Assembly: GCF_000259075.1 (NCBI RefSeq)
Contig: NZ_AJKI01000022.1
Span: forward strand, 1-64,000
Source: Marinilabilia salmonicolor JCM 21150
Lineage (GTDB): Bacteria; Bacteroidota; Bacteroidia; Bacteroidales; Marinilabiliaceae
Length of the DNA stretch: 64,000 nt
Direction of reading: 5' to 3'
The position numbers and the translations under genes are program-made. Below are positions 6,703 through 33,131 of the stretch, piece by piece (positions within the stretch are counted from its first letter, which is position 1; each line of letters starts with the position of its first letter). The notes beneath the pieces were generated by a model. That model was not told where the DNA came from. It did not search any database and saw nothing but the letters and a program-made list of their open reading frames with translations.

Positions 6703-6938
6703 AACGTTTCTATAACCACACCTCAAAGTGCTATATTCCGTTTGCCAAAAAAAGGTGCACAAAACATACCAATTCTGAATGCTTTGTACACCTTTATGTT
6801 TTCTATCAATTAATCCCCATCCGGATAAGGAGAGGAATGTCAAATATTCTTTATGCTTTATGTAGGGCAGGGCAACCAATTTGTTTTAAAGTTTTTTAGT
6901 TTACTGTAAAACTAGCTTTTTTGTTTTCTTTTTCCAAA
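6703..6938 (-). repeat. Platform repeat, copy A
   Basis: First of three direct copies (A here, B at 23416, C at 32787). Read on the minus strand, the copies share a conserved block that ends with the sequence GAAACGTT (GAATCGTT in B and C), after which each copy continues into unrelated sequence. It contains a hairpin with 13-bp arms (6751-6763 and 6783-6795) followed on the minus strand by a T-rich stretch, so it should also stop transcription. Copy A is shorter than B and C: homology fades at 6938. Confidence 0.85.
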
Positions 6939-6995
6939 AGAGATTTACTGATTCAATCCAAAAATTCCGGTGACGTTACCCCTTATAGCAAACTT

Positions 6996-7196
6996 TTAAG
7001 GGAGCGCCCAGGGAGGAATAAGTCCCCAGGAAAAGCCCTGAATGGCATCATTCCTATCATTGGTAATTACCGGAGTGACTGGAAAAGTAAAAGCATTGAA
7101 AATATCCGGAGTGTACCATTCCGGTGTCAGGAACCTGGCTTTGAAACGATCTTCATGCTGCTGGAAGGTTTTGTTGTTTTTGGTACGGAAGCACAT
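6996..7196 (-). pseudogene. Truncated duplicate of the SRAP gene (5' third only)
   Basis: The frame encodes the first 63 residues of an SRAP protein, nearly identical to the intact gene at 3953-4558, then stops after GLIPPWA. Homology at the DNA level begins around 7008 (4371 in the intact gene) and covers the start codon. The active-site Glu and His regions are missing, so no activity is expected. The break lies about 70 bases from repeat A, which suggests recombination at the repeat removed the rest. Confidence 0.85.
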
Positions 7197-7208
7197 GGTT
7201 TTCGGGTT

Positions 7209-7733
7209 TTAAACTGGTTTTTTCAGCACCTCCCCAACCGGGAGCTTTAGCCTGGCAAGAACCGTTGACGGATTTTTTCTTTGTTCCAGGATATACTCCA
7301 TAACCGGATTGGTGTCCAGTTGTTCAAAATCCATATAGTCTTTCTCTTTGTTAAGGATCTTTACCGGAAAGACTATTCCGGTTTTGGTATCGTTAATAAA
7401 ATACCGGGATTTACAAAAAGATATCCGTCCATAAAATTTTACTCCCTGGGCCATCTTTTCTTTGATGGATTCAATGGTTGGGTTTTTAATAAAAGTCAGG
7501 TGGCAGGCCTGATAATCATGATCTTTATTATCGGAAGTTCTTAAACGAAAAGTTACCACATCGTCTTTATGAGGACAAGTCAAAGTTGGCTCTTTTGTTT
7601 GCCGGGCCCACAAAATCTGTTCTTTTCGTTCATACCGGAAAAAGTAGGACTTTCCGGTTAACTCTTCTTTAATAAATCCGTATTCCTTGTTTACATTAAA
7701 TTGGGTTACCACGCCTCTGTGCTCTTTATCCAT
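7209..7733 (-). CDS. Cold-shock/OB-fold-like protein
   Basis: A 174-residue protein whose first ~30 residues (GVVTQFNVNKEYGFIKEE) match the start of a cold-shock OB fold, which binds single-stranded nucleic acid. A second OB-like half is suggested by VKFYGRISFCKSRYFI further on. It lies 12 bases upstream of the truncated SRAP gene, so the pair may once have been an operon for single-strand or abasic DNA handling. Assignment rests on the N-terminal motif only. Confidence 0.55.
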   Translation of the reverse strand: MDKEHRGVVTQFNVNKEYGFIKEELTGKSYFFRYERKEQILWARQTKEPTLTCPHKDDVVTFRLRTSDNKDHDYQACHLTFIKNPTIESIKEKMAQGVKFYGRISFCKSRYFINDTKTGIVFPVKILNKEKDYMDFEQLDTNPVMEYILEQRKNPSTVLARLKLPVGEVLKKPV

Positions 7734-7830
7734 AAAAATTTCCGATGGTTTGAATGTATAAAGATGGGCATTTTTTATGGAGTCTTATATGTGGTTTTTA
7801 AGATTATCCAATAACCATTTTTCATTATGC

Positions 7831-8161: not shown

Positions 8162-8179
8162 CATCAACAAACTAAAACC

Positions 8180-10162: not shown

Positions 10163-12529
10163 CTATATATTAACTCCAAATTTTTTAATTTTATCCAATG
10201 CATTATTTACAATTTCCAGTCTTTTCAAATCAATGTTTTCCTGTGTTTTAACCTTTGATATGACAGTTTTAATAACACTAATCTCATTAAAAGACAGTTT
10301 GCCTGTTTGTTCTCCAATGTCGATGACTTTCTTCCAGGTTTCTTTATCAATTAGTTTTAATCTATTATAAATGACTAAAGGATCGAAAGTTTCTGAATCC
10401 GACAATTTACTGATTGAACTAATATCTGCAAAATCTAACTGAAGCTCTTTTAATTTGGAAATAATTCTACCCCCTCTTTTTATTTCTGAATCAGTAAAAT
10501 TTCCATTTTTCTTTAATTTGCCTCTAATCACTGATACATAATTTTGTTCTACCTGTGTAAGACAGTCTGTACGAATCATATATAAGCATAATCCATCCCA
10601 AAACTTCATACCAAGGGATGTGATTTCTTCTAAGGTGTTATATTTTTCTGTTTCTGCGACTTCATCCGATTTTGAATCATATCTTAATTTGAATTCTTCT
10701 TCTGTTATTAAGTGTTTTTTAATTACATCAAAATCAGTGTTTTCAGCTTTTTTTTCTTTCAGCTTTTCCCATACCTTCTCGCTCTTGGCAGCTTCACTAA
10801 TCAAGGCAACATCAAGATTCGTGAGAAAATCATACACGAATATCAGAAGTTTCTTTAGTTCAGCCTGTAAATCTTCTTCTATTACCTGATTATTCCATAT
10901 CAGACCAAGGTTTAACTTATTCCTGGTAATGTGATGGAAGTAAGATAAGGTATAAGCTACTGTGGGAGCTTTTATATTTGTGTCCCCTATAGGATTTTGA
11001 TTCTTTCGACCAAAAAGCTTATCTGTGGCCTTGAATAATAATGCATTAGCAACAATATCTTCCCAATATACTCTCCCGGGTTTCTTTTTAGAAAATTCCG
11101 CATCAATATCACGCATAAAGGCAGTGTAGTTTTTCTGGGAACCTTTGGCTACATGATATGGTTTTACATGCCATAAATTCATATACTTAGCCACGTCTGA
11201 CTTTATTATTACCTGATTTTTAGGGAATTTCAACTTAAATGCATTTTCCTTACTTTTTGTTGGTTCTTTGTTTAGGGCTTCCTTATATTGTCCTTTTACA
11301 CGTTCAAAAAACCATATAGTTTGTTTATTTCTGTCCTCTGAATCAACTGCATAAGTTGTCCTTGACAGTTCTTCCAGGCGTTGCAGGAATGGACTATTGG
11401 AAGTTAAATCCAGTTCGGATACTTTGTTTTGGCTGTTTGCAAACCGGGAAATAAAAGGAACAGTTTCATCCTTCTTTTCCTCATCCTTGATAACAGTCAA
11501 TTTCATTTGGACAAAAACATCTGATATGTTAGCTTCCTTATAGTTTTTGGCTGTATGAAATAATGACGCTGTAGTCTGTCCTCCGTTTACTATCTGAAAA
11601 TCCTTAATTGCTGTTATTACTTTTTGACCATCATTATTCAGCTTTGTTTTTACTTCCTGGGCTGTTGTTGCCAGTCCATTGTTATATGGTAAAAACATAT
11701 GGGGATTAAACCTTATTGTATCGCGAATTCCCCTGTTTACTTTTCCTGTTTGCTGTAAAAATGCTCTAACGTTACTTTCAAGCAACCTTGTCCCATAATT
11801 CCTGTAAAGATTCGCTAGAATACTTCCAGGTACAATTGCAAGGTAACATTCGTATAATTCATTTTGAGAAGGCATTTCCAGACAGGGTATAACTTCACCC
11901 ATCAATTCTTCAAAATCTATTTCGATGGGCTCTCTATTGCCTCTGGACTGAGATAATCGGTGTAACCTTTCTATATCCCATACTTTAAATGCAACAAGAA
12001 TATCTTCAAGACTCTTTAATTTAAAATTATTTGGTGGCTCATGTGGAATATCTCCATTTGAAAGAATAAAAACATTAATCCGAATAATATCCTTTCGGTA
12101 CTTATGTAATATTGTAGCTAATCCGTAAGCTTCTGTTGATGGTTCAATGTCTTCTAAATAGCCTTTTAATGCTGCATTTACAAAGCCGGTTGACCATTTT
12201 TGAAGTTTTTCAAAGTCAGACTTGCCCAGGCGGTAAAGTTCATTCGTATCCCGGTAGGAAGAAATAAAAATATCTATATTCTCATATCCTTCTTCAATTG
12301 CATAACCATTAATTTTGTATTGAATATTTTCATTTCTATTCTCCTTGATGTAACTACAAAGCCTAATACCGTCTGTTTCTCCTGCATCAGCAAGAGTTTC
12401 CATAACATACTCTGTAAATTTGTTTTCTTTTGAATCACCATTTTCATCGGCATAAACCAATGACTGTACCTCATGATACAAGTTTTGAATAAATGTATCT
12501 AGTTCAAAATCAATGTTTTTATTCTGCAT
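10163..12529 (-). CDS. AIPR-family abortive infection protein (Mza-like)
   Basis: A 788-residue protein with the AIPR domain (Pfam family named for abortive phage resistance). Signatures visible are FNPHMFLPYNNGLATTA, IKDFQIVNGGQTTASLF near residue 310, and PFISRFANSQNKVSE. The C-terminal ~250 residues are helical and not recognised. It is the last large gene of a six-gene overlapping operon with Vsr, cytosine methylase, MutL-like ATPase, Z1 and PD-(D/E)XK proteins, and overlaps the PD-(D/E)XK gene by 11 bases. Confidence 0.92.
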   Translation of the reverse strand: MQNKNIDFELDTFIQNLYHEVQSLVYADENGDSKENKFTEYVMETLADAGETDGIRLCSYIKENRNENIQYKINGYAIEEGYENIDIFISSYRDTNELYRLGKSDFEKLQKWSTGFVNAALKGYLEDIEPSTEAYGLATILHKYRKDIIRINVFILSNGDIPHEPPNNFKLKSLEDILVAFKVWDIERLHRLSQSRGNREPIEIDFEELMGEVIPCLEMPSQNELYECYLAIVPGSILANLYRNYGTRLLESNVRAFLQQTGKVNRGIRDTIRFNPHMFLPYNNGLATTAQEVKTKLNNDGQKVITAIKDFQIVNGGQTTASLFHTAKNYKEANISDVFVQMKLTVIKDEEKKDETVPFISRFANSQNKVSELDLTSNSPFLQRLEELSRTTYAVDSEDRNKQTIWFFERVKGQYKEALNKEPTKSKENAFKLKFPKNQVIIKSDVAKYMNLWHVKPYHVAKGSQKNYTAFMRDIDAEFSKKKPGRVYWEDIVANALLFKATDKLFGRKNQNPIGDTNIKAPTVAYTLSYFHHITRNKLNLGLIWNNQVIEEDLQAELKKLLIFVYDFLTNLDVALISEAAKSEKVWEKLKEKKAENTDFDVIKKHLITEEEFKLRYDSKSDEVAETEKYNTLEEITSLGMKFWDGLCLYMIRTDCLTQVEQNYVSVIRGKLKKNGNFTDSEIKRGGRIISKLKELQLDFADISSISKLSDSETFDPLVIYNRLKLIDKETWKKVIDIGEQTGKLSFNEISVIKTVISKVKTQENIDLKRLEIVNNALDKIKKFGVNI

Positions 12530-13502
12530 TTAAGATTTCTTTAATAACGGTTTCAGAAGTAATCTCAAATTCAACGCAGTCGTTGGGGGATATTTCGTAG
12601 CTGATATGCGAGATTGCCTTGTCTACCATTGACGAAATGATTTTGGGAAATTTATCTGAAACCTGTAAATAGGTAACCTTTCTTATATTGTATGATGTCT
12701 TATTGTATTCATTTTCTATCTCTGGGTTAAGCCCTAAAAAAGATAACTTCAGGTTGAATTCATTAATTAACAGAGGATCTGATTTTAAAATATCTCTAAC
12801 CTCATTGATTTTATTAGTTAAGGTATCTGCACCACTGGGTAACTCTGCAAGCCGGATAAAAGCAATGAAAAGGTTATTAAATAAAGAAGAATCTAATTGA
12901 TATTCATTTGAAATTTTAATTGCAGGGTTATTTAATTTAGAGGTTTTAACTTCAATAGCTGAAGCTCCAAAGTAGAAATCCTGATTAGTTCCTGCGGGAG
13001 CCTGCCAGGATTCAATAACTTTCGTATGCTTTTTAGTTTCTTTAAGTAGAAATTCCAGAATCAATAATTCACCATACAGTCCTCTTTGTTGTTGAGGAGT
13101 GAGCATTTCTCCGGAAAATTTACCAAATAATCTCTTCCAGTATAAAACTCTTTGCGAAATCCTTAGTAATGCATCATCGATATTATAAACCGTTGAAATC
13201 GACCTAATAATATCATCAATGAACATTACGAAAATGTCAGAAAGTTCATTTTCCTGCAGGATTAATATCAATTCATTTGAGGGTAAAACCTGTATTTCAA
13301 CACCAGTAAACCTTTTCAGGTAACTCTGTTTTACAATAGCTCCTTCAGGTAGTTCAACTGAAAAGAATTTGGCTTTTGAAGCTAGAATTGTTCCTAAATA
13401 GCAATTGAAATGGTTTAAATTATCAATTCTCTCTTTTACAACCCCTGTACCTGAGTTTATAATTTGACTACTCCATATTTCTTTGAGATTAGTTACCTCC
13501 AT
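12519..13502 (-). CDS. PD-(D/E)XK motif protein (DUF4420)
   Basis: A 327-residue protein of the DUF4420 family. The nuclease-like core is visible as RGLYGELLILEFLL, then GTNQDFYFGASAIEVKTSK, which supplies Glu, Asp and the E-x-K of a PD-(D/E)XK fold. The family is a constant partner of Z1 and AIPR proteins. It overlaps the Z1 gene by 14 bases and AIPR by 11. Likely the DNA-cutting subunit. Confidence 0.88.
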   Translation of the reverse strand: MEVTNLKEIWSSQIINSGTGVVKERIDNLNHFNCYLGTILASKAKFFSVELPEGAIVKQSYLKRFTGVEIQVLPSNELILILQENELSDIFVMFIDDIIRSISTVYNIDDALLRISQRVLYWKRLFGKFSGEMLTPQQQRGLYGELLILEFLLKETKKHTKVIESWQAPAGTNQDFYFGASAIEVKTSKLNNPAIKISNEYQLDSSLFNNLFIAFIRLAELPSGADTLTNKINEVRDILKSDPLLINEFNLKLSFLGLNPEIENEYNKTSYNIRKVTYLQVSDKFPKIISSMVDKAISHISYEISPNDCVEFEITSETVIKEILNAE

Positions 13503-16248
13503 TTTCTATGTCATTATCATCATCTGTTTGTCCATCCTCGAAATCTGGAATAAGGGGACGAGCAGCAAATTCAACTTTTTCTTCATTTTTTATTTCTGGA
13601 AAAACAATACCCCAGCCAATTAATGGAATACCCTGTTCCAAGCTGTTATCATTTTCCCAGTTTAAAGGATAGATAACTAACAATGATTTTCCTGATTTGG
13701 CCCGAACCTCTTTTATTTCTTTTTCTTTGGGATTTTGTGCGGAAATGTCTAAATCCAGCCGCCTGTCTTTTCTATCCAGAATATTGTTTTTTGGCAGGGT
13801 GAAATAATCCTTACTATTTGGTGGAACACTATTCCTTTCTGGTAAACCTCCTTCGATTATCTCATTTTTACACTCAAATTCAAAAGTCTGTGTGGATTCT
13901 GAGCTAAGGATTACAGCAACAGTCCAGTATTTGAGGGAATCATGTTCGGTTTGCTTATTTATATAATTTGTTAAAACTTCTGGTCTGATATCCGGTAAAT
14001 CGGAGTTGAACCCGGCAATGAAATCTGTAATTAATTCTGACGATACATTTTCCCAGATTATGCCGTTGATCTTATTAGCTTTTTTTGTTCTTCGAATAGT
14101 TGGGTTATCCATTCTATGAAGAAGATTTTCGAAACCTTTAAAGTTGGCTCTGACAACATCATGCCTTTTAATCAACTGATAGGTCTGTTTGATTTTTCCA
14201 GAAAAACCTATTTGTATTTTCTCATGTTCCCGCATTTTCCCCGCACCCGTAATACTTAATAATCCAGGATGTGTTCGTACTTTCAATCTATAATCAACAG
14301 GTCTTTTATTTTGAGCTGACATGACATCAAAATCTGCACGCATCTCTTCGGTAGCCAATGTAATATGTCTGTACCAATTCACTAACTGCTCTGTGGTATA
14401 TAAACGGCATAAATCAACATAGCCTGGTCTGTAACCAAACCATCGCCCCATTTGCATGAGGGAATCATAAAGCCTCGTTGTTCTCAGGTAATAACTCACC
14501 GATAAGCCTTCCAGAGTAATGCCCCGGGCGAGCCTGTTACCTCCAACGGCAATTACTGACAATCCATTTTCATAATCATCATATTTTATGTCTTCTATTT
14601 TATGATATTCAAGTTGACGTGTGTTTTTCGTTCCATGGACTGCTCTTACTTCTATTTTCGTTGCAGCTTCAACCAGAACTGCCCTGACCTCATTCCATGA
14701 ATGTGCTTTGATTTTTGGATCTCTGTAAGCTATCTTTTGTATAACAGAATTGGTCGTTGGTTCAAAGTCATTCTCAAACAGCTCTTGCAATTCATTCAAT
14801 AAGTTTCCTTGTCCGGAACGAATCTGCCGGATATAATCTCTTAATATTTCATTTAATAACCAGGAAACGCGGTCAATCCATGCAACATATAAAGCGACAT
14901 GAACCAACATGGAATTGTGTTTATACTGCTGCCCTCTTAAACGCCTGACTGCACAAGTTAAAATAAAGGACTTTACAGCTTCTTTCAGGCTGGCTGGCAC
15001 ATCATCAGGAAGTTCATCTCTGTTTGTTTTGTTTAGTCTTTTGGGGAAATATGGTTCCTGGTCTTCAGCGAATCTTATAATATCCAGTCCTTCATATACT
15101 TCTCCTGTATCTTCGTTTTCAAAACCGAAAACCTGAGTTGCGCCAATATAATTTGATGGAGGTGGGATATTAACAATAAAGTCTCGTGGAAATAAGTCTT
15201 CACCAACTTTTAGCTTAACATCCTTTACTATAGTCTCTAAATCCTCACTCCACGAGGAAGGAATAAAAATATTCGCATAAGGTGTAGCCGTATATCCAAT
15301 GAATGTATTCTGGTTAAATAGGTTTAATAAAGTCCTGATTAATCTGTTTATGGTTTTTACATCAAGTTCAGTACCTGAATTAACTGAAGCATTATCAGCT
15401 TCATCATCAATTAAAAGCAGGGGAACATTAAATATTTTAGATTCCCCTTTATCGTCTTTATTTGTAAATCCAAGTAGCCAGAGAATTAAATTTTCAAGGA
15501 TGCTTTTGTTTTTCTTTATTACTAAAACAGTGGGACTTTGACCTCCAATAGGAACATTAATTCGTGTCGCAATACTTTTTTTGAAATCTCCATCCGGATC
15601 TGCATTGGTAAATGAATAGATTTCCGTGTCTGCACTTATATGGCCAACACCTGTTTTATTATTCCGTTGCCGTTTTATGAAATCAGAACTATCACGACCG
15701 ATAAAGCCATTGTCAATTCTTCCCTGGGTTTGTCCTCTGAGCGTATTATGAATACCAGCTATAACGATAATCAGTTTGTACCCTGCATCAGTTGCTTTAT
15801 TTATAAGACCGGTATAGTTCGCCGTTTTTCCTGACTGGACATTTCCCACAACCATTCCACGTCTGTCCCAACGTCCTTTGGTTTTGGGATTAACACATTT
15901 ATCCAGTATTTTATCTGTTATATCATCTAATGTATCAATTGGAAAAGAAGCATTCTCCTGATTCATGTAGATTTTATATCTGGTCCATAAATCAGGCTTA
16001 ATATTTACTTTTTCATCATATAGCCAGGGTTTAACATCTTCGGCAACTAATAATGTCGCTTCTTTAGAGTGAACTTCAAAGTCGGCCTCCAGTTGTTCTA
16101 TTAATTCATCCTTATTAATACTCTTGAAATCCGGCATTAACGAAAGATTGTTAACTTCCGTTGCAATGATTTCGTAAGTAACTTCCTTTCTTTTGTATTG
16201 TTGTAATAATACGTGGGCTATATTCCTTGCACTTGAAAATTCACTCAT
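13489..16248 (-). CDS. Z1-domain P-loop ATPase
   Basis: A 919-residue superfamily-2-like ATPase carrying the Z1 domain. Walker A is GNVQSGKTANY, the DEAD-like motif is LLIDDEADNAS, motif III is YTATPYANIF, and motif VI is probably MQMGRWFGYRPGY. Z1 proteins occur with MutL-like, DUF4420 and AIPR proteins in the Mza anti-phage system. It starts 2 bases after the MutL-like gene ends. Confidence 0.92.
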   Translation of the reverse strand: MSEFSSARNIAHVLLQQYKRKEVTYEIIATEVNNLSLMPDFKSINKDELIEQLEADFEVHSKEATLLVAEDVKPWLYDEKVNIKPDLWTRYKIYMNQENASFPIDTLDDITDKILDKCVNPKTKGRWDRRGMVVGNVQSGKTANYTGLINKATDAGYKLIIVIAGIHNTLRGQTQGRIDNGFIGRDSSDFIKRQRNNKTGVGHISADTEIYSFTNADPDGDFKKSIATRINVPIGGQSPTVLVIKKNKSILENLILWLLGFTNKDDKGESKIFNVPLLLIDDEADNASVNSGTELDVKTINRLIRTLLNLFNQNTFIGYTATPYANIFIPSSWSEDLETIVKDVKLKVGEDLFPRDFIVNIPPPSNYIGATQVFGFENEDTGEVYEGLDIIRFAEDQEPYFPKRLNKTNRDELPDDVPASLKEAVKSFILTCAVRRLRGQQYKHNSMLVHVALYVAWIDRVSWLLNEILRDYIRQIRSGQGNLLNELQELFENDFEPTTNSVIQKIAYRDPKIKAHSWNEVRAVLVEAATKIEVRAVHGTKNTRQLEYHKIEDIKYDDYENGLSVIAVGGNRLARGITLEGLSVSYYLRTTRLYDSLMQMGRWFGYRPGYVDLCRLYTTEQLVNWYRHITLATEEMRADFDVMSAQNKRPVDYRLKVRTHPGLLSITGAGKMREHEKIQIGFSGKIKQTYQLIKRHDVVRANFKGFENLLHRMDNPTIRRTKKANKINGIIWENVSSELITDFIAGFNSDLPDIRPEVLTNYINKQTEHDSLKYWTVAVILSSESTQTFEFECKNEIIEGGLPERNSVPPNSKDYFTLPKNNILDRKDRRLDLDISAQNPKEKEIKEVRAKSGKSLLVIYPLNWENDNSLEQGIPLIGWGIVFPEIKNEEKVEFAARPLIPDFEDGQTDDDNDIENGGN

Positions 16249-16250
16249 AA

Positions 16251-20881: not shown

Positions 20882-20882
20882 T

Positions 20883-23090: not shown

Positions 23091-23415
23091 TGATTTATTG
23101 TTTTTTTAGTGCTTCTGCAATTCTGCATTACCTGTTTGTTTAAAAGCAACTGTTCGATTGTATGCGGTCGGCCGGTGCTTCCAAGGTGCTAAGTTTGTTT
23201 CAGGCTGTAGGCTTACACAATATAAGTATTTTTAACTCGATCTCTTTATTCAAAAAGTTAAGGTGCAAAAAGCCCTCTTTGTCAATTTCCCAATCCTCAA
23301 AATTAATGCCCCATGTTCGCCTGAAATTAATGAAATTTCTCCTGCCATTTTTATATATTTTCAATTATCATAGTTACTTTATTTGGTAACTGCACCATCT
23401 TTTTAATGAACGCTA

Positions 23416-23760
23416 AACGATTCCATACCCATGCCTCAACGTGAGACCATATTCCTTTTATCAAAACAAAAGGTGCACAAAACATCCAAATTCCGAATGC
23501 TTTGTACACCTTTAAATTCCTTATCAATCATTCCCCATCCGGTTGAGGAGAGGAAGCTCAAATTTTCTTTAATCCTTATGTGGGGTTGGGCCGTCAATTT
23601 GTTTTATTGTTTTAAAGTTTTTTAGTTCCCCGTAAAACTAACTTTTTTGTTTTCTTTTTCCAATGAAAATTAACATTTTTTACCAATAACTCATTTTTAA
23701 ATGATAAAAGGCCACCCCAAGGCAACCTTTCTTCAAATATAATCATCATTTCAATATCGT
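23416..23760 (-). repeat. Platform repeat, copy B
   Basis: Second direct copy, about 345 bp and closest to copy C. Read on the minus strand it starts beside sequence matching the 3' flank of the RecA-fold ATPase gene at copy C. It carries two hairpins that should stop transcription (23707-23730 and 23469-23513), and ends at GAATCGTT (complement of 23416-23423). The bases beyond are unrelated to those beyond A and C. The 23761-24000 stretch next to it shows no gene or repeat that I recognise, and 23151-23415 likewise. Confidence 0.9.
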
Positions 23761-24002
23761 AAAAACATCACCCGCCAATGCTCCGCTTTTTGAGCTATTT
23801 TTTAGACACTGGCTATTTCGGATATTTTATCTATGCATCCTTATTTGCCGATTTTAATACATCCTAGATTGCCGAAAATGATATATTTAATGCCGGTTAC
23901 ACATTAAATACCTTCCCGGAAACCGATTGAAAACACTATAGTTAAATCATTGTAATATAGTTTTTTATTGCGAGGCATCCTGAAGATTGTTTAGTTCAAT
24001 AA

Positions 24003-24077: not shown

Positions 24078-25580
24078 TTAGTTTCTACCATATCTCCTAA
24101 ATGCGGATATTGTTTGATAATAGCCATAACTGATAAAAATCCTGCTACAGAATAGAACCAAATACCCATAATTATATGAGTTGATGTCTTTGCCCCATAG
24201 TATTGGATTCCATTCAGTTAAGTTTAAAAATTGAACAAATGCACTTAAAGTTTCTAACCTTGCTTGTCTGGTACATGACCATTCTAATCCGTTATTGGGG
24301 ATTATTAAAAAGATATATAAAAACACACACGCTGAAAAAACGGTAAATAGGAATCCTCTTCCCCAATTTAAGCCATGATGATTTGACCATTTACTAAAAA
24401 ATAAAATTGTCTTTCCCTTATCCCATAATCTTAATTCTCGTTCAAAGACTATCATTTCATAGCTTTTAAATTTCAATGCATTTATTTCATTTCCAGATTT
24501 TCTTAGTGAATTCTTAATTATTCGATAAGATTCTCTTAGTTTTTGCAATGCTTTTTTAGAGATAAGATCATTTGAAATATCTTCTAAACCATCTGTGTTA
24601 TAAACATTAAATTGGTTTGGAATAATTGATTTCTTTTCAATTTTTATGTTCCAGAAATTTGTTTCACAATTAAAATTTGCTCTTGAAATATCCAAGGATT
24701 GCTTAAATTCAGCTGACTCGAAATTTATAAATGAATCTGTTTGAGTTTTGCAATGAATAAATGATAGTTGGTTATGGAAAACCGTATTTGAAAAAATAGC
24801 TCTATCTAGAAAATCTGTTAGATGAAATATTTGAGGGGAATTAAATTCAGCGTAATAGAAATCCACTAGATTATAAAATGTAGTATTGTCGAAATTTGCT
24901 GTGTTCAAAAAATTAACTGAATGAAACTGGACTTTTTCATGAAATTTGCAATTTTTTAAATACAGAGCTTTACGAAATTTAGCGTCGTTGAAAAAGACAC
25001 GGTCTTTGAATTCTATATTCCTAAGATTAAAACTACTAAGGCTAATACTGCTGCAAGGTTCAGATTCTTTGTTGTTTAACTGATTAAATGAGCAAATGTA
25101 ATTAAAGTTAACATTCTTAAAATCAAAGCCATTTCTAAAAAATGCAGATTGAAATGAAACATGTTTTTCAAACACACACCTCTCTAACTTTATTATTTCA
25201 TTAAACACCGATTTCGTAAACATTACATTGTCTTTGAAAAATGTGTCTGATATGGTGATGCTGCTCTTGATGTTTTGACTTTCAAGAATAAATATATTGA
25301 AAAAATTGAAATTTCGTATATAGATATCTTTATTAATTTCTCTCTTCTGAATGACTTCTGAAAGGATATTAAAATAGCAAGAAGGATTTAAATCTATATA
25401 TTTCTCTGTTACATTAATTAGGTCGATAATATCATGAATTGGCTCTTTCCCATAATGGTCAAAACTTCTTATGCTTATGTATGGTACATCTTTATCTAAA
25501 TCTTTGGATTCGTATTCCACTCTTATGCTATAAATTTCTTCTTGGTTTATTATTTTTGTTAATCCTTCAATTTTGTCCAT
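24078..25580 (-). CDS. Pentapeptide-repeat-like membrane protein
   Basis: A 500-residue protein. Residues ~100-330 are a run of five-residue repeats with Phe at regular places (FKDRVFFNDAKFRKALYLKNC, VNFLNTANFDNTTFYNL), predicted to form a right-handed beta helix. The C-terminal ~100 residues hold two membrane segments (FLFTVFSACVFLYIFLIIP and LVLFCSRIFISYGYYQTISAF), the second like the pore helix region of small ion-channel proteins. A membrane effector with a repeat sensor is a reasonable guess. It forms a single-gene cassette. Confidence 0.7.
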   Translation of the reverse strand: MDKIEGLTKIINQEEIYSIRVEYESKDLDKDVPYISIRSFDHYGKEPIHDIIDLINVTEKYIDLNPSCYFNILSEVIQKREINKDIYIRNFNFFNIFILESQNIKSSITISDTFFKDNVMFTKSVFNEIIKLERCVFEKHVSFQSAFFRNGFDFKNVNFNYICSFNQLNNKESEPCSSISLSSFNLRNIEFKDRVFFNDAKFRKALYLKNCKFHEKVQFHSVNFLNTANFDNTTFYNLVDFYYAEFNSPQIFHLTDFLDRAIFSNTVFHNQLSFIHCKTQTDSFINFESAEFKQSLDISRANFNCETNFWNIKIEKKSIIPNQFNVYNTDGLEDISNDLISKKALQKLRESYRIIKNSLRKSGNEINALKFKSYEMIVFERELRLWDKGKTILFFSKWSNHHGLNWGRGFLFTVFSACVFLYIFLIIPNNGLEWSCTRQARLETLSAFVQFLNLTEWNPILWGKDINSYNYGYLVLFCSRIFISYGYYQTISAFRRYGRN

Positions 25581-25617: not shown

Positions 25618-25753
25618 GCATACAACGCCCACTTGTATGAAATTTTGGGGGATTGCGGGAGTCGTTACTGTCTTCCGTTACAAAATTTGATACGGGACAG
25701 AGAGGTTCACGTAACTACTAAGCCCCTCAGAATTTTATGCATGATATTGGCAG
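25618..25753. repeat. attC-like palindrome between helicase and pentapeptide modules
   Basis: The 136-base interval is bounded by GCATACAAC (25618-25626) and ATTGGCAG (25746-25753), with imperfect arms inside (TGTATGAAATTTTGGGGG against CCCCTCAGAATTTTATGCATG). Each outer box pairs with the box at the far end of the adjacent module rather than with its neighbour, as in integron arrays. Confidence 0.6.
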
Positions 25754-25801: not shown

Positions 25802-28800
25802 TTATGGGCTTGAATATATTTTCAATTCTATGTTTCCAACCGTGGCAAGATAATGCTGAACATTACCTAATAATAATAAAATGTCATTTGACGGATTTGC
25901 CTTACTTAATGATGGCTGAACAATGTAAATATGAAAACGCATTGCCTTTGACCATTTAGCTTGGTTTAAAAAGTTCTCTAAATCATCTTCTGTTCCTTTT
26001 ATGATTCTACTGCAACTATTGCCTTCAAGTTTCTTTGTTTTACGCTTAAATAAATGATTAAAAAATTCTCTGCCATCTTTGTGTTTCCACTTTAATGATT
26101 TTTCTGCTTGACCACAAACTTGATAGAAGTTGTCAATGTCATTGCTTACATTACCATTTTTAGCATATTTGAGATGGTACAGATGAATATCAATCATTGT
26201 ATCTGAATCATTAATTCCAATAATGTCAGCAATTTCTCCTTTGCCATCATCATCATAAATGATTTGAAAATCGTTTTTTATTTTTTCAATAAAGTAATAC
26301 TGAATTGAATCTTGAATATATGGTGCTATATCTTGAGATTCTTTTCTAATATTTACACCTGTCCAATTGTCTGCAATAATTAATTCATCAGAAATAATAT
26401 CGGGCTGAATTTTAAGTTTGACATAAAGATTTCCAAATAACTGTGAGCCATCAGCGAACCAAATTGTTGGCGTGGTGTCTTGGAAAAAACTCAATAAACT
26501 TTCATTCTTATTCCCATATTGTATTGTACAGATTTGATTTGTTATTTGATTGACTTTGCAATATGGTTCGTTCGTTACTTGGCTGAGACCTATTTCAATT
26601 TCGAATTGAACAGATTCATTCTCTGCCTCAATAACGAACTTTAAGCCCTGATTAATGTCAGCACTCGGATTCAACAAGTTTAACTCTACAAATGCAAAAT
26701 CATAGTTTGAACCATTAATGGATAAAGAGTATCGGCTTTCTTTGTTCTTGTACATTTCAGGATTCCAATCAATCAAAATTGGCATCACATTAGGCCTTTG
26801 CTGTAATTTCTTTATTGCTAAAGTATGTTGCAGCACAACATTAGGGTCAATTGAATTGTCTGAGATTATTTCCCCTATATCTCTACACCATTTTGTTAGC
26901 TCATCTAAATTACCTCTTTGATATGACCATATTTTTCCTTTTACAGAACAACCTAATGATACTTTCTCTCCTTCTTTATAGCCAACTCCAAAGAAGTTGT
27001 TTTTAATCAATGTACCTTGTTCTAATCCTTTTATGCCATCTTGAACAAGTTTTCCAACATATGACTGAAATGTAATATCTTGACCAATAGCTTTTCTTGT
27101 TCCTACATTATAAAGTGCTAACCTATCTACCTTATGAAATATTCTAAATACACTTTCCCCCTTAATAGGGTTTGTGTTCCCATTGCCGAAGATGGCATCC
27201 ATCAATGATATTCCCGAAAATCCCTTTAGGGAAGTATTTAAGAATACACGGTTTATATTAGGTCTTAAATCCCAATGAACCACTACTAAATTCCACTGTA
27301 AATTATGAACTGTTTCAAATCTTCCCCATTCAACTTTTTCAATTTTACCCAAGATGATTATTAAAGTGTTATTACTGTGTCGACTGAAAATGTGTTCGTA
27401 GCCACTAATTCCTGGAAACCCTGATTCCCAATTTGAAGGATGCCAAGTGTCAACGGCACTTTGAAAAATCACTGTGCTCATTGCAGGATTTATTTGCTGA
27501 AAGGGAATAATTGAATCTGAGAGATTATCAAAGTTTTCTAAAAAGGCTTTAATGTTAAGTTCCTTTTCAGTTGCGTTAGCACTTAAACGGGGTAAAAGTA
27601 AATTCCAATCAGAGTTCCGCGCATATAGCTGGTCTAGTTCTTCATGTATTGGTGGGTAAGCGATATTCGTTATAAAACTTGCATTTCCTAATTGGTTATA
27701 TGATGTTCTTGTAAATCGTCCAATGAATTGAAGCGTAATTGGTAAACTTTGTCGTTCATCGTGAATTGCAGCAATTTTAAGATTTGGTAAATCAAACCCT
27801 TCGCCTAACATATTGACACAAACAATTATTGAATGTTCCCCTCTTTTTATTGCTTCAATTTTATTTTTTAAGCCTGCAATTCCTGTATAAACTAATACAG
27901 GATTAAATTCATCGTAATCCCTGTAATATTCAAAAACCTCTCTTGCCCTCACTTTATCTTTACACCTTGCCATAATTAGATGGTTGAAACCATCTGCACG
28001 GTCTGCTCTTAGCTGTTCAATAGCCTTTTCTGTAATTTTTTTATCGGCTAAATCTTTATTGTATTCTCTTATTGGCAGGTAGTTAATCTGTTTGTAATAT
28101 TTCTGTTCTTGTGCTTTCCTTAGAGAAAAATTAAAGATTTGCTTTCCTTGTAAACTCTGTCCGTCATTTCGAAAAGGGGTCGCAGTAAATAGAAATACTT
28201 TTTCCTTGTCAAACTTACTGATAAGTTTTTTCCAAGTTTTCGCCTCTGAATGATGAGCCTCGTCAACAAAAAAATGAGAGAAAGAATTTTTTAATATTTC
28301 TTTCTGTTGAAGTGAAAAACCTGTTAACAATGTCATTGTTGAAACAACAACATTACACTTGTCAATGAAACTTTGTAATTCCCGTGGAGTGGCAAAACCG
28401 CTATTTACAATCCCAACAATGGGATTCAAGCATGATTCATCAGCAATTCCATATTCCTTTAGTAATCCAAGCGTTATAAATTTTTGTGCAATCTGTGTTC
28501 TGAGTGAATCAGAAGGAACAGAAACAAGAAGCTTTTTGCAACAATTTGAAATTAGTGTTGCCAACATTGTTTCTGTTTTACCTGTCCCTGTTGGCATTAC
28601 TACAATTGCTTTGTCGTCAGCGTTGTGAATGTGAGCTAAGATAGAGTGTAATGCACCAATCTGGGGTGGTCTAAGTCCTTTAATATTTTGTTGTTCATCT
28701 TCCTTAATGAATTTGAATTTGTCAATCCAAGTTGTTACAACAACTTCTGGTGTTATGTTTTGAAAAAGTGGATGTTTAAGCCATCGTAGAATTTTTATTC

Positions 28801-29044
28801 TCCCTGCGTTAAAATCCGCTCTTCTAGGAATTTTAGAAGTAAGTAGAATATATCCAATTGTATCATCTTGATGGTTAATATTACTTGTCAACAAGTACTT
28901 CACTCCTTCAGATTGTATTACGAAAGGGGCTGAGCTAATAATTTGAACATTGTCTATTGTTGTTTGCTCTCCAAAAAGTTGCCAAATCTGATTCGAGCCA
29001 ATTTCATCAACAAGTTTTGATATTTTTGGTAGAGTTAATGTCAT
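25802..29044 (-). CDS. Superfamily 2 helicase with nuclease-like C-terminus
   Basis: A 1080-residue protein. Helicase motifs: Q-like motif GLRPPQIGALHSI, Walker A VMPTGTGKTE near residue 150, DEAH box FVDEAHHSEA, motif III FTATPFRND, and motif VI QFIGRFTRTS. The C-terminal part contains ADIIGINDSDTMIDIHLYHLKYA, which fits a PD-(D/E)XK nuclease core, so a helicase-nuclease is likely. It lies downstream of SIR2 and HerA on the same strand but behind a cassette-like junction, so it may or may not be part of that system. Confidence 0.85.
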   Translation of the reverse strand: MTLTLPKISKLVDEIGSNQIWQLFGEQTTIDNVQIISSAPFVIQSEGVKYLLTSNINHQDDTIGYILLTSKIPRRADFNAGRIKILRWLKHPLFQNITPEVVVTTWIDKFKFIKEDEQQNIKGLRPPQIGALHSILAHIHNADDKAIVVMPTGTGKTETMLATLISNCCKKLLVSVPSDSLRTQIAQKFITLGLLKEYGIADESCLNPIVGIVNSGFATPRELQSFIDKCNVVVSTMTLLTGFSLQQKEILKNSFSHFFVDEAHHSEAKTWKKLISKFDKEKVFLFTATPFRNDGQSLQGKQIFNFSLRKAQEQKYYKQINYLPIREYNKDLADKKITEKAIEQLRADRADGFNHLIMARCKDKVRAREVFEYYRDYDEFNPVLVYTGIAGLKNKIEAIKRGEHSIIVCVNMLGEGFDLPNLKIAAIHDERQSLPITLQFIGRFTRTSYNQLGNASFITNIAYPPIHEELDQLYARNSDWNLLLPRLSANATEKELNIKAFLENFDNLSDSIIPFQQINPAMSTVIFQSAVDTWHPSNWESGFPGISGYEHIFSRHSNNTLIIILGKIEKVEWGRFETVHNLQWNLVVVHWDLRPNINRVFLNTSLKGFSGISLMDAIFGNGNTNPIKGESVFRIFHKVDRLALYNVGTRKAIGQDITFQSYVGKLVQDGIKGLEQGTLIKNNFFGVGYKEGEKVSLGCSVKGKIWSYQRGNLDELTKWCRDIGEIISDNSIDPNVVLQHTLAIKKLQQRPNVMPILIDWNPEMYKNKESRYSLSINGSNYDFAFVELNLLNPSADINQGLKFVIEAENESVQFEIEIGLSQVTNEPYCKVNQITNQICTIQYGNKNESLLSFFQDTTPTIWFADGSQLFGNLYVKLKIQPDIISDELIIADNWTGVNIRKESQDIAPYIQDSIQYYFIEKIKNDFQIIYDDDGKGEIADIIGINDSDTMIDIHLYHLKYAKNGNVSNDIDNFYQVCGQAEKSLKWKHKDGREFFNHLFKRKTKKLEGNSCSRIIKGTEDDLENFLNQAKWSKAMRFHIYIVQPSLSKANPSNDILLLLGNVQHYLATVGNIELKIYSSP

Positions 29045-29080: not shown

Positions 29081-29211
29081 TGCCAACGGATGGCAATATG
29101 CGGAGGCCGGGATTTCGAAGCTCCAACTTGTCAAACCGTTACAATTTTGAGAAAGTGTACAAAAGTTTAAATTACCCACATCCCCCGGCTTACGTATATT
29201 GCGTGTTAGGT
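29081..29211. repeat. attC-like palindrome between HerA and helicase modules
   Basis: The clearest junction: box TGCCAAC (29081-29087), left arm GCAATATGCGGAGGCCGGGAT (29093-29113), right arm with ATCCCCCGGC then GTATATTGC (29180-29202), and box GTTAGGT (29205-29211). On the minus strand it reads ACCTAAC ... GTTGGCA. ACCTAAC fits the integron R'' consensus RYYYAAC and is the exact complement of the box at the upstream edge of the SIR2 module (32783-32789). The remaining bases of the 29045-29333 gap show no gene. Confidence 0.65.
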
Positions 29212-29333: not shown

Positions 29334-31364
29334 CTATTTACTTTTCTCTTGCCAATCATCCGCAATATCTTTCCAATCAACTTCCCTTTCTACCACTTGA
29401 CCATCTTTATCTTTTCTTGTCCAAACATCCCAAAAGTCTGGGTCGTCAGATTGCGGTCTTTGGTCTATACTTAAATCTCTTATTTTAAGAAGTATTGGTA
29501 ATTCAGAAGCCCAGCCTAACAATATTGCTCTCTGTGATGGAAGAGATGGTAATTCCTTAAGTAAACCTTTAAAGTTATCTGGTAATAATTTACTTACTAA
29601 ATCTTGGTCTCTATCATTGCTTATCCGGTGAAGTATAAAACTGTTACATTGTGATAATACTGTTGGAGATAATTCAGATGGCCTTTGAGAAGATAAAACC
29701 AAACCTAAACCAAATTTTCTTCCTTCACGGGCAATTTTCTCAAATACTTTCGTACAGGTAGATGACGCATTACCTTCAGAATTATCATTATATCTAGTTA
29801 TAAAGGAATGCGCCTCCTCCATTACTAAAACTGTTGGTAAAGTCACTTCGTTTAACTTCCTATACCTTTGTAGTGCTTCAAAAACGATTCTTGAAATCAC
29901 TGCAGTTGTTACATGAATAATTTCAGACGGAACTAAAGATAAGTCAATTATTGTAAATGAAGTTTTATTAGATGCCCCAAGATATTTCTCTAACCATTTA
30001 TCAAGCTCAATATTGGTTTTGTTACCAATAATTGAATCCATCCTTGTGTCGGCTAGTATTGTTCTTATTCTTGCAATCAGAAATTCCAAATATTGTTCAT
30101 TACCAGTCTCTTGAGCAAGAGCCTCTAGGTAACTTAAAAATATATCACCTTCAAAAGGTATTGGAATATCTTCATTCTTTGGATAAAGTTCAACCTCATT
30201 ACCTCCAAGACTAATATAACAAGTTCGAATTGTTTCGATTAACTCTACTATTTCGGTTGTTGTAAATTCAGAATAGTTAACCCAGCCATTATTCTGCACC
30301 TCCTTATGTTTCTGAATTAATTCAGTAATCATTTCATTAAGGTCATTCAGATTATCGCCTTCTAAATCAAAATTTTCTAATGAATTATTCCAAATAATTA
30401 GTCTTTCGGTGAAGTTCTTATTATGAGGAAATCCATTGTATGGTTCACCTTTATTCTCACTAGAAATAGTTGATTGTAGAATAATACCTACAAACTTCTT
30501 TGCTTTTAGGTTAGGGTCTGTCTCAAATGCAAATTCTTCATTCCGCATGGCTCTTAAAGCTCTTTTTAAAAGTGGAAGTTGAGCTTTGGTACTTGCTTGA
30601 GTAAAAGAACTCCACTCAGCACTATTCCATAACCATAAAGGTACATCTAAGCTATTTTTTTCATCTCCAACTTTTAATACTGTTGCCTTTTCCTTAAATG
30701 CTTTTGCATACTCTCCATTTGGGTCAAGTATGATAAATCTGGCATTAGTATTTTCTTCTTGTTCCGTTGCTTCAATTGACCATTGAATTAATCCAGCTAC
30801 GGTACATGATTTGCCACTACCTGTATTACCTAGAACAGCTAAATGTCTCCCAAACAATCTATCAGGGTCAATTTTCACTTCTGCATTTGCAGTTAAAGGA
30901 CTATTACCAATATAAACTCTTCTGTTTTCACCCGATTCAACAATTGATTTCAGTTGTAAATCAGTTGGGATTAATACAGAGGAACCTATACTTGGGAAAG
31001 AATGTACCCCTCTTTGAAATTTGAATGTTTCACTTGATGATACCTTCAGGATACCTAAAGGAGCAAGTTTCATTTTTCTGAGTGGGAAAGGTAAATCAAT
31101 TAAACCATAGTCTTGATACCCCTTTCTTTTAGGAAAAGGAGAACGTTCTATAGCAATCCATTCTATCTGACAAACAATACTTCCTCCTTCATTGGGGATT
31201 AAAACATAACTATTAATTCTAGGAAACTCTCTAGGAACTCCTGCATTTGCAGAGATACCATCTGGAGCATCTAAATCTAGTTGAACTTTGATTTCGTCAG
31301 GAGCAACAAACTCAACTACTCCAATTCTCAATGAAGCATGGTTTTCAATTGGAGTTCTACTCAT
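29334..31364 (-). CDS. HerA/FtsK-family DNA translocase ATPase
   Basis: A 676-residue HerA-like ATPase. The N-terminal ~150 residues are a HAS-barrel-like beta domain; Walker A is AVLGNTGSGKSCT near residue 185; Walker B is VLVMEEAHSF; and the arginine-rich SQRPSELSP segment follows. HerA hexamers translocate DNA and in defence systems team up with nucleases or SIR2 NADases. The ATG at 31364 overlaps the end of the SIR2 gene by 8 bases and is preferred to an upstream start inside that gene. Confidence 0.92.
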   Translation of the reverse strand: MSRTPIENHASLRIGVVEFVAPDEIKVQLDLDAPDGISANAGVPREFPRINSYVLIPNEGGSIVCQIEWIAIERSPFPKRKGYQDYGLIDLPFPLRKMKLAPLGILKVSSSETFKFQRGVHSFPSIGSSVLIPTDLQLKSIVESGENRRVYIGNSPLTANAEVKIDPDRLFGRHLAVLGNTGSGKSCTVAGLIQWSIEATEQEENTNARFIILDPNGEYAKAFKEKATVLKVGDEKNSLDVPLWLWNSAEWSSFTQASTKAQLPLLKRALRAMRNEEFAFETDPNLKAKKFVGIILQSTISSENKGEPYNGFPHNKNFTERLIIWNNSLENFDLEGDNLNDLNEMITELIQKHKEVQNNGWVNYSEFTTTEIVELIETIRTCYISLGGNEVELYPKNEDIPIPFEGDIFLSYLEALAQETGNEQYLEFLIARIRTILADTRMDSIIGNKTNIELDKWLEKYLGASNKTSFTIIDLSLVPSEIIHVTTAVISRIVFEALQRYRKLNEVTLPTVLVMEEAHSFITRYNDNSEGNASSTCTKVFEKIAREGRKFGLGLVLSSQRPSELSPTVLSQCNSFILHRISNDRDQDLVSKLLPDNFKGLLKELPSLPSQRAILLGWASELPILLKIRDLSIDQRPQSDDPDFWDVWTRKDKDGQVVEREVDWKDIADDWQEKSK

Positions 31365-32652
31365 CACCTTCTTTATTTTGATTAGATAATGGAGTAACTG
31401 TACCACGTGCCTTAAGTAAATCAGCCATCTTATATGTGGTACGGTCTATTGCTGGTTTTGGCAAATAATTATCTACTAAAGTCTTTATGTTGCCAAAATG
31501 ATATCCAAGCATTAATGAAATTTGAACAGGTCGTTTAGCTTTTGAATAAAACCTTTTGATTCTATCACCAACATCATCAAAGCCAATAATTACAAGGTGT
31601 GTGGAAGGTATTGTGAGCATGTCAATTAGTACTCGATTAATATGGTCGTCTCCAAAACTATAGCCATAAGTTACAATCGTAGAGTTAGGTCTTATTACAG
31701 AGCTTGCAAAATCTCTGAATAATTCAACATATGGGTATTCTGAAGTTTCCCTATCTTTTGAAGAATTGGGATAAATCATTAGACTACCTTCTTGGCTATA
31801 TCTTTTAATGTCAACAGCACCATACGGCAAAGAAAAACGTCGTACGGTATTATCTCTTTCAATCCAATCTAATGACCCATGAAGTTTTGTAAAATTGACA
31901 ACCCCTTCTAGATATCGAGGTTCTCCCCGAATCCCAGGAGGATTATAATGAATATCTATATTTAGTCTAGAAGAACGAAAAATCGGAGAAATACTACCAA
32001 CAAATCTATCTATCAAATGTAGACCAGCAAGCTCAGCTCCAAATTCTGTAATCCTGTCATAATTAGTTGTAAATAAATTAAGGCGTTCTCGCGTTGCAAT
32101 CCTACTTGCAAAACTTAATAAGAAATTCATGAGATACTCTGCAGGTTCTTCTTTTGCACTAGTTACTACATTTTTCTCTGATTCTAAAACTGCATTTGCA
32201 AAATTGATTATACCAGTTTCTAAATCTTTTTTTAGTGATTCTAATTTTTCTTTTGCAGGTTCTCTAGTTCCTAAAGAAGTAACTATTTCTAAACCTCTAA
32301 TTAGTTCATTTAACGTTCTGATTTCGTCTTCAATATTTGCAACACCTCTTCCAGATTTTTTAGCTGATTCATCTGCGATATGTTTTATTTCGTCAGTATA
32401 TTCTGAAATCACCATATTGCCCATTCCTGCACCAGGACTACCTGTTGCAAGGTGGTGAACCGCAGAAGACATCCCTGCACCTGTCAAAAGTGCTAAATGT
32501 TCACTTTGAAACAAGGCTGTTAACCAAGGCTCTACTACATTTCTCAATTCATCAGAATCAGGATCCTCAATTTCCGTTGGAACTTTATAATCTCGAAGCT
32601 TAAGGATATGTTTTCCTTGCCAGCTTTCTAATTGCTTTTCTTCTGCTGTCAT
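31357..32652 (-). CDS. SIR2-domain NADase-like protein
   Basis: A 431-residue protein with a SIR2 fold: LLTGAGMSSAVHHL near residue 57 (NAD binding), LFTTNYDRITE, VNFTKLHGSLDW (catalytic His) and a C-terminal TYGYSFGDDHINRVL. SIR2 effectors in phage defence degrade NAD+ when activated. Its gene is first in a two-gene unit with HerA, matching the SIR2-HerA type of system (Nezha-like). A direct-repeat platform lies just upstream. Confidence 0.92.
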   Translation of the reverse strand: MTAEEKQLESWQGKHILKLRDYKVPTEIEDPDSDELRNVVEPWLTALFQSEHLALLTGAGMSSAVHHLATGSPGAGMGNMVISEYTDEIKHIADESAKKSGRGVANIEDEIRTLNELIRGLEIVTSLGTREPAKEKLESLKKDLETGIINFANAVLESEKNVVTSAKEEPAEYLMNFLLSFASRIATRERLNLFTTNYDRITEFGAELAGLHLIDRFVGSISPIFRSSRLNIDIHYNPPGIRGEPRYLEGVVNFTKLHGSLDWIERDNTVRRFSLPYGAVDIKRYSQEGSLMIYPNSSKDRETSEYPYVELFRDFASSVIRPNSTIVTYGYSFGDDHINRVLIDMLTIPSTHLVIIGFDDVGDRIKRFYSKAKRPVQISLMLGYHFGNIKTLVDNYLPKPAIDRTTYKMADLLKARGTVTPLSNQNKEGDE

Positions 32653-32682
32653 AATGTCAATTATTTCATTTCAGTCTGTGTG

Positions 32683-32764
32683 TTGGCAAAAATTTGGCTC
32701 TTTTACAAGCTGAAGAATCGGCTTGTGCGTAGGAGCTTGTAAATGTGCCAAATGCGCGTTGGCA
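32683..32764. repeat. Palindrome upstream of the SIR2 gene
   Basis: Arms at 32691-32711 and 32734-32753 (ATTTGGC, then TTTACAAGCT, against its complement) are flanked by two direct GTTGGCA boxes (32683-32689 and 32758-32764). It lies between the start of the SIR2 gene and the end of repeat C. It could be an empty cassette site or the folded start of the SIR2 module. Confidence 0.5.
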
Positions 32765-32786
32765 TGTCGCTCTTGGCATGAAACCT

Positions 32787-33131
32787 AACGATTCAATAAA
32801 CGCACTCCAAAGAACGGTTATATTTCTTTACCAAAACAAAAGGTGCACAAAACATCCAAATACCGAATGAATTGCACACCTTTAAATGCTTATCAATCAT
32901 CCCCCGGCCATAAGAGGAGAGAGATCTAAAATTGTCTTTAATCCTTATGTAGGGTTGGGCCATCAATTTGTTTTATTGTTTTTTAGTTTTAAAGTTTTTT
33001 TATTCCCCGTAAAACTAACTTTTTTGTTTTCTTTTTCAAATGAAAATTAACATTTTTCCACCAACAGATCCTTTTAAAAGAAGAAAGGCCACCCAAAGGC
33101 AGCCTTTCTTCAAACATAATCATTTCAAAAT
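32787..33131 (-). repeat. Platform repeat, copy C
   Basis: Third direct copy, reaching from the 3' flank of the RecA-fold ATPase gene to GAATCGTT (complement of 32787-32794). The next bases on the minus strand give GTTAGGT, which fits the integron crossover box GTTRRRY. It is about 80-85 percent like copy B by eye over its full length. It contains hairpins at 33084-33107 and 32839-32883. As it joins the viral-like core, C may be the original platform. Confidence 0.9.
33084..33107 (-). terminator. Terminator of the core operon
   Basis: A 10-bp stem with two G-U pairs (AAAGGCTGCC with GGTGGCCTTT on the minus strand), a TTTG loop and a following T-rich run. It lies 27 bases after the last core gene. 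The same hairpin is kept in repeat copy B. Confidence 0.75.

Follow-up and report, generated by a model that had tools for sequence, protein, structure and literature searches.

Solitary attI-like repeats at the heads of putative gene cassette arrays in Marinilabilia salmonicolor

The DNA analysed here (the window, 64,000 nucleotides) comprises the opening 64 kb of contig C22 (113,588 bp) of Marinilabilia salmonicolor JCM 21150, whose 5.0 Mb genome is assembled in 72 contigs. Its minus strand carries three copies of a repeat, A (6703-6947), B (23416-23767) and C (32787-33141), each with accessory genes behind it, and copy C adjoins the core of an integrative element. We describe these repeats as putative solitary platforms resembling the attI sites of integrons, which are known from drug resistance.

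Three related repeats with a common junction

Repeats A, B and C are homologous and lie in the same orientation. Pairwise alignments gave 84% over 328 columns for B and C, 79% over 248 for A and B and 72% over 266 for A and C, a similarity that is beyond chance, and a search of the whole genome with B as the query returned C at an E-value of 9.8e-92 and A at 1.6e-56. On the minus strand, A ends in GAAACG/TT and both B and C in GAATCG/TT (the slash marks the junction), and beyond this point the sequences diverge. A hairpin (AAAGGTGyACAA...TTGTGCACCTTT) is present in all three copies and a second one (AAAGGyTGCC...GGCCTTT) is confined to B and C, as judged by eye in the alignment. A preliminary description of this DNA had proposed three same-strand repeats diverging after a shared AACG (CGTT) junction, two hairpins in B and C, and the inclusion in B of the 3´ flank of the core ATPase gene; the alignments bore out each of these proposals.

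The ATPase gene (AAA_24; 33134-35029, minus strand) lies directly upstream of C, closing the element core, and probably starts farther downstream than listed. Homology between B and C begins at 33141, inside the final bases of this gene (stop codon at 33134-33136), and B thus carries its 3´ flank. A similar extended form of the repeat is found on contig C306 of the Marinilabilia metagenome-assembled genome Soudan_9 (G003), where a search for the ATPase was empty, which indicates that the ATPase-flank stretch is part of the repeat unit. The preliminary description had further taken the core boundary itself to have been duplicated. The repeat is found at unrelated places in several species, so a single duplication of the core boundary is not supported as its origin.

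The JCM 21150 genome contains five full copies, namely A, B, C and one each on contigs C57 and C23, together with further short matches of 32-48 bp. We aligned 14 copies from four Marinilabilia genomes and found the 3´ GTT in 13 of them. Ungapped column identity was 0.67 in the ten bases before the junction G, falling to 0.50 and 0.33 farther upstream, and was 0.52, 0.42, 0.29 and 0.32 downstream of the junction; this profile is only weak evidence. Every repeat ends in a site of ~107 bp that consists of a putative terminator hairpin followed by ...CG/TT. In the window these cores occupy 6703-6805, 23416-23523 and 32787-32893, with the apparent crossover G at 6705, 23418 and 32789, and a covariance model of the site matched them at E-values of 4e-16 (A), 1.7e-17 (B) and 2e-17 (C), all three copies being part of the model's own alignment. 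The sole match to Rfam in the window at gathering thresholds was a tRNA, so that a known RNA family was rejected for the repeat; a viral origin was likewise rejected, since the viral_contigs set gave neither a confirmed relative of the ATPase nor a match to the repeat pattern.

Putative cassettes and attC-like sites behind the repeats

Three cassettes follow C on the minus strand, in the order SIR2-HerA, helicase and pentapeptide protein. Cassette C1 (29087-32788) holds a SIR2 gene (31357-32652) and a HerA gene (29334-31406), labelled SIR2 and HerA by PADLOC. It starts with GTTAGGTTTC and ends, ~120 bp beyond the HerA stop codon, with GAAAACCTAAC, the two being complementary with one mismatch. 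Its end is an attC-like site of 123 nt (29085-29207, minus strand), an imperfect palindrome whose arm score of 13 compares with 5.9 in shuffled sequences and was reached by 0 of 500. Cassette C2 (25626-29086) encodes a DEAD/ResIII helicase identified with Pfam (25802-29044). The match between its start (GTTGGCAGTA) and end (CAGCTGCCAA) is limited to the core 7 bases and failed a test allowing one mismatch; its attC-like site of 126 nt (25624-25749, minus strand) had an arm score of 11 against 5.6, equalled by two of 500 shuffles. Cassette C3 (23984-25625, the left coordinate being approximate) encodes a pentapeptide-repeat protein (24078-25580) and runs from GTTGTATGCAAGTG to CACCTGCATACAAC, with an attC-like end from 24055. 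Here the palindrome is weak, 13 of 500 shuffles scoring as high, and a like sequence closes cassettes at two other loci (L125 and L127).

The DNA behind B (10163-23417, minus strand) starts at the junction and encodes an HATPase (20883-23090), a protein of unknown type (19586-20881), Vsr, a DNA methylase and MzaB-E, as identified with Pfam and PADLOC. Behind A (5668-6704, minus strand) lies a gene for a 304-amino-acid protein (5742-6656) with a truncated attC (5668-5731; 48.6 bits with an attC model). Its start (GTTGCATGCA) and end (CTGCATACAAT) differ by two mismatches, so that it failed the one-mismatch test. A second truncated attC matches the model at 4608-4693 on the same strand with 63.8 bits. 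Within the window, cassette status is therefore supported solely for the modules behind C and for the gene behind A, the latter with a decayed attC and two mismatches. We also noted a 196-bp direct repeat (91%) that links the start of a SRAP gene (4367-4562) with a truncated copy just upstream of A (7005-7200).

In an all-against-all comparison, a second repeat of ~135 bp was found to sit between single genes of the arrays that follow the first repeat. The JCM 21150 genome has 21 matches to it, including a regular array of six sites on contig C34. Each gene unit starts after ...GGGAC/GTT and ends just behind the stop codon with the reverse complement of its own start, followed by AAC AAAGCTAT... 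This recurrence of the unit start at the unit end corresponds to the R´/R´´ relation of integron attC sites as defined in PMC12901181. Of 24 such sites we scored the 12 that have both canonical ends, and all were imperfect palindromes, 11 of them beating all 300 shuffles and one being equalled by a single shuffle. The palindromes span 123-134 nt overall, with a core of 133-134 nt for the ~135-bp repeat, and carry AAC and GTT ends. They thus combine the complementary R´´ and R´ ends, the imperfect palindrome and a length within 57-141 nt that are expected of attC sites. Several arrays have such sites, and the 1.6 kb upstream of their repeat showed no integrase.

We measured the start/end relation by asking for the reverse complement of a cassette's first 10 bases, with at most one mismatch, near the stop codon of an open reading frame, and compared the outcome with shuffled decoys. 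These settings were fixed after earlier start/end comparisons and were reused unchanged on sites outside those that set them. Seven of 12 repeats passed, three of them exactly, as against 31 of 1095 decoys (exact in 2 of 1087); left out were the copy on contig C11 of M. salmonicolor MSL42 (G004), which runs off its contig, and that of M. rubra WTE16 (G001), which has no GTT. At attC junctions 9 of 13 passed (decoys 3/1203), and at attI sites adjacent to an integrase 2 of 3 (1/272). With the settings unchanged, four of six further sites passed compared with 4 of 552 decoys, two of the six being integrase-adjacent or beside an integrase fragment. The last set consisted of 20 sites chosen from 31 new forward-strand places outside the repeat family that the covariance model had found; two lacked GTT and were left unscored, and 10 of the other 18 passed, seven exactly, as against 22 of 1579 decoys (one exact). 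The attC that closes a repeat's cassette may be of another attC type.

PADLOC labelled further genes of the arrays as restriction-modification or candidate defence genes, 7 of 10 chosen proteins being matched at 1e-10 or better, and some cassettes look like anti-virus defences. Other mobile elements were seen in the same surroundings. Group II introns recognised by Rfam lie within or beside cassette arrays (L072:3383-5549, L066:9056-9253 and L075:5042-6580) and bring to mind the introns targeting attC that PMC12901181 mentions. Genes for a tyrosine recombinase together with an IS91-type Y2 transposase sit at or near att junctions at L066:5218-7630, where a Pfam search was run, and, by eye, at L075, L076, L156 and L157. 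The L066 element starts with GTTGAACTAAAC and ends with GTTTAGTTCAAC, and resembles a cassette that brings its own recombinase.

An integrase with an adjacent attI, and the repeats in relatives

On contig C17 of JCM 21150, a gene for a 691-amino-acid tyrosine recombinase (the integrase) is followed by an attI that ends in CTATAGGGACG before TT, then by a cassette and an attC. The recombinase of M. rubra (contig C20) has 704 amino acids and that of MSL42 (contig C30) has 380, and the M. rubra locus can be aligned with that on C17 on either side. The genes upstream of the M. rubra and MSL42 recombinases, read by eye, are presumably pyrG and yidC. In MSL42 the hairpin of the repeats and the attI come immediately after the stop codon of the integrase gene. 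A profile of the repeat core, run against 30 recombinase loci, matched directly behind the gene in three of them, G031 (E-value 7.9e-12, through CGTT), G025 (2.1e-9, to the contig end) and MSL42 (1.6e-6). These matches indicate that a terminator and an attI make up the 3´ third of the repeat, from which the gene is absent.

An attI thus adjoins an integrase gene at the chromosomal platform (C17 and its counterparts in M. rubra and MSL42) and at none of the 14 repeats. A search for one integrase motif, run in three frames, was negative upstream of all 14 repeats, four other solitary sites and the 17 new model sites that could be checked; at L163, L164 and L167 the upstream check is meaningless because the site lies less than 200 bp from a contig end. 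The same search recovered five of five complete recombinases. At L156 and L157 a tyrosine recombinase gene, by eye part of an IS91-type element, lies ~740 bp downstream.

The recombinase retains the tyrosine-recombinase residues. The solved structures nearest to it are those of archaeal Xer/XerA proteins and of the Vibrio integron integrase 2a3v. Both 4a8e (archaeal Xer) and 5hxy (XerA) align to it in one stretch; in the alignment to 2a3v, chain residues 178-244 (67 residues) face 25 residues of the query, and the insertion typical of IntI, an extra domain (I2) of the catalytic half, is missing. Matches of three Marinilabilia integrases to TIGR02249 likewise skip positions ~182-238, and a canonical IntI was rejected for these genomes, none of 11 reaching the cut-off of that model. 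The predicted structure, of moderate quality (mean predicted local distance difference test score 80, predicted template modelling score 0.50, from 8 sequences), shows the recombinase fold with an N-terminal domain. Integrases of the C17 type (L065:6179-8254 and L073:5450-7561) are roughly double the normal size and contain two SAM-like matches, hinting at fusion or duplication of a recombinase.

The preliminary description had called for a comparison of relatives, taking a constant repeat with a variable next gene as support for a platform, and in relatives the repeat is indeed constant while the DNA behind it varies. The alignment between the window and MSL42 ends exactly at GTT (window 32787; L034:92), and that with M. 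rubra ends at window 32827. The cassette behind the MSL42 repeat is one that lies behind an attC on contig C52 of JCM 21150, with 89% over 71 bp from the shared CGTT. In Soudan_9 and MSL42, a solitary site follows similar upstream sequence and is followed by different cassettes, both with exact ends. Thirteen of the 14 repeats precede a gene on the same strand or, on contig C11 of MSL42, a cassette start. The comparisons point to a breakpoint at GTT with cassettes in one direction, the exception being the repeat on contig C41 of Soudan_9. Upstream of B and its Soudan_9 counterpart a 156-bp block is common and the sequences then differ, so a continuous shared unit was rejected there.

Among 61 genomes (JCM 21150 and 60 relatives), 12 matched the repeat. 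Matches of ~200 bp or more were confined to four of the five Marinilabilia genomes, the others, including that in G002, being 31-58 bp long; the short matches in G025 were later recognised as attI cores. A further partial repeat lies on a contig of a Marinilabilia metagenome-assembled genome (L111, 41 bits), and a pattern match in Wenyingzhuangia (L113) was set aside as probably chance, the repeat profile giving no match there. The covariance model was built from 20 sites, and most of the sites that it listed for the Marinilabilia genomes belonged to its alignment: five in JCM 21150, seven clear ones in Soudan_9, five in MSL42 (one integrase-adjacent) and one each in M. rubra and G002. Reverse-strand echoes of the hairpin were excluded from these counts. 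G025 has seven sites, one of them beside its single integrase of this type. The model matched 19 of 71 genomes and 6 of 21 genera in the family, training genomes included, and 4 of 149 genomes in the order, the genome of the window among them.

The element that carries C has a tyrosine integrase with an arm-binding domain (59034-60251, minus strand), and a tRNA-Pro gene (60439-60515, minus strand) serves as its attachment site. Its core is common to MSL42 and M. rubra, being shared with the latter up to a tRNA-Pro, and relatives of the ATPase that are 91% (MSL42) and 87% (M. rubra) identical each have a repeat directly behind them. On contig C23 (L072 near 1750), a copy of the tRNA-Pro 3´ end with native flank precedes another solitary attI; this copy is probably the far end of the integrative element. 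Two large core proteins encoded in 34827-42275 share a near-identical C-terminal peptide (ALELEMEMEFEF and ALELEMEMAFEF), and a comparable stretch occurs close to the start of a third, with T-rich repeats of 8 and 16 bases nearby. Elsewhere in the window, positions 1-98 and 43838-43935 form an inverted repeat of 98 nt (85% complementary) with arms 44 kb apart, and an AT-rich tandem array of 7- and 14-base units (GCAATTA/TCAATGA) lies at 63749-63923 beside a dicarboxylate symporter gene.

Interpretation, alternatives and known systems

We consider it highly probable that the repeats serve as solitary attI-like sites, where a recombinase adds circular cassettes at the G/TT junction. In this view the 3´ third of each repeat duplicates the stretch that follows a XerA-like integrase gene, namely a terminator hairpin and an attI ending in CG/TT, with the gene itself missing. 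The recombinase would join circular gene cassettes to this site between G and TT, so that genes accumulate behind it one after another in the same direction, every one bounded by an attC-like end of its own. The chromosomal integrase encoded downstream of the pyrG-yidC-like genes, on C17 in JCM 21150, might act in trans; the sites may have multiplied through copying; and the hairpin may block transcription from outside. The idea of the preliminary description that the repeat is an insertion platform in repeated use, with the junction as the breakpoint, was thus largely right, and is sharpened here to an attI-like integron site with a G/TT crossover and cassettes that have their own ends.

Several observations weigh against this interpretation. 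Five of the 12 repeats failed the cassette test, and a looser version of the test (11 bases, no positional limit, 15 sites including three integrase-adjacent ones) gave 5/15 vs 11/433 decoys with one mismatch and 12/15 vs 140/433 with two. Although the Mza-type defence module that follows B starts at the junction, no matching or clean cassette end was found for it. GTT is lost from the M. rubra repeat, and at the C41 repeat of Soudan_9 the next gene is on the opposite strand. With respect to the GTTRRRY consensus, GTT is kept, but the strict form matches few junctions, RRRY fitting in one of 13 attC starts (GTTAGGT, by eye). The interpretation does not account for the 5´ half of the repeat, whose origin as a remnant of the integrase gene was rejected: 13 of the 14 copies matched the last 200 nt of the MSL42 gene at the level of shuffles, and the best alignment to that gene was equalled by 5 of 100 shuffles. 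The IntI insertion is described as essential for integron function, though it is not fully conserved in a subgroup of integron-like recombinases (PMC8138268). The 380-amino-acid integrase type, the one with an attI similar to the repeats, is missing from JCM 21150 itself; the C17 integrase of this genome has 691 amino acids, and the repeat profile gave no match to the C17 attI. Nor was such an integrase among the matches in Soudan_9 (7 clear sites) or G002 (1), which are fragmented assemblies, 94% and 89% complete. The absence of this type from JCM 21150, G002 and Soudan_9 counts against the simple version of action in trans.

The lack of a matching integrase type in JCM 21150 would suit a rival view in which the sites are relics, leftovers of complete integrons after deletion of the integrase, with frozen arrays moved only by homologous recombination or by the carrier element. 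The decayed attC sites behind A, the decayed repeat in M. rubra and a site in G031 that follows an integrase end truncated by the contig end also fit such a history. We nevertheless regard it as unlikely. Sister species differ in the cassettes at G/TT behind the same site, one cassette lies behind the repeat in one species and behind an attC in another, cassette ends are exact at many sites, and G025 has many sites alongside one retained integrase of this type, all of which argue for exchange after the sites had spread.

It is much less probable still that the repeats are unrelated to attI and that cassettes simply landed there, as at attG sites. Genomic sites other than attI can receive cassettes (PMC12901181), but homology between the core and integrase-adjacent sites extends for ~100 bp, hairpin included, and a model of the core predicts cassette junctions in other genera. 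Least credible of all is an ordinary interspersed repeat, similar to a miniature inverted-repeat transposable element, or a conserved leader RNA that precedes accessory genes by chance. The multiple copies of ~250 bp with one or two hairpins would suit either, but no terminal inverted repeats were seen by eye, and the position of the repeats ahead of same-strand genes or a cassette start, in all but the C41 copy of Soudan_9, speaks against coincidence. For the 3´ half this explanation is refuted, since the 3´ edge is a recombination point with cassette ends.

The solitary attI-like sites and their arrays work like an integron, with cassettes in one orientation, attC-like palindromes with AAC and GTT ends, an apparent G/TT crossover and, at one chromosomal locus, an attI behind the integrase gene. 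They differ in that the integrase lacks the IntI insertion and falls far below the cut-off of the IntI model, its gene points toward the cassettes, and many attI-like copies lie apart from it. A typical integron has one attI near one integrase with the extra domain (PMC9024848), and we have not filed the system as canonical because its integrase lacks this defining insertion. The Delta-attI gene cassettes of mobile integrons (PMC12901181) also place attI sequence away from its integrase and are recombination-active; there, however, the attC end of a cassette within one integron is taken over by a partial attI, whereas here separate arrays at many loci each begin with an attI-like unit. Cassettes are likewise inserted outside an integron platform at attG sites, but these have reportedly diverged from the classical att sites (via PMC12901181), whereas the sites described here are homologous to attI. 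Clusters of at least two attC sites lacking integron-integrases (CALIN; IntegronFinder 2.0, PMC9024848) are also arrays with no adjacent integrase, and those described here differ in having an attI-like head. Bacteroidota are among the phyla with integrons (PMC8618304), and a complete integron is recorded in Salinibacter (PMC9024848), so integrons in the phylum are as such not new; phage-resistance functions among cassettes are also known generally (PMC8618304). Searches of the open PubMed Central (PMC) literature turned up no description in Bacteroidota of solitary attI sites in many copies, nor of an integron integrase without I2.

We give about even odds to the broader proposal of a Bacteroidota cassette system apart from canonical integrons, in which an I2-less integrase would serve in trans many solitary attI platforms on the chromosome and on an integrative element, with parallel arrays that include multi-gene anti-phage cassettes; such a system could be a pre-I2 survivor or an independent invention. 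If correct, a system of this kind at the family level, with numerous solitary attI sites and an I2-less integrase, would alter how cassette capture is searched for, because IntegronFinder detects IntI and attC and leaves attI outside class 1 undetected (PMC9024848). It would also provide a natural test case for the shift of integrases from double-strand to single-strand recombination (PMC7790495), and would explain how defence genes are assembled behind a mobile-element core in these bacteria.

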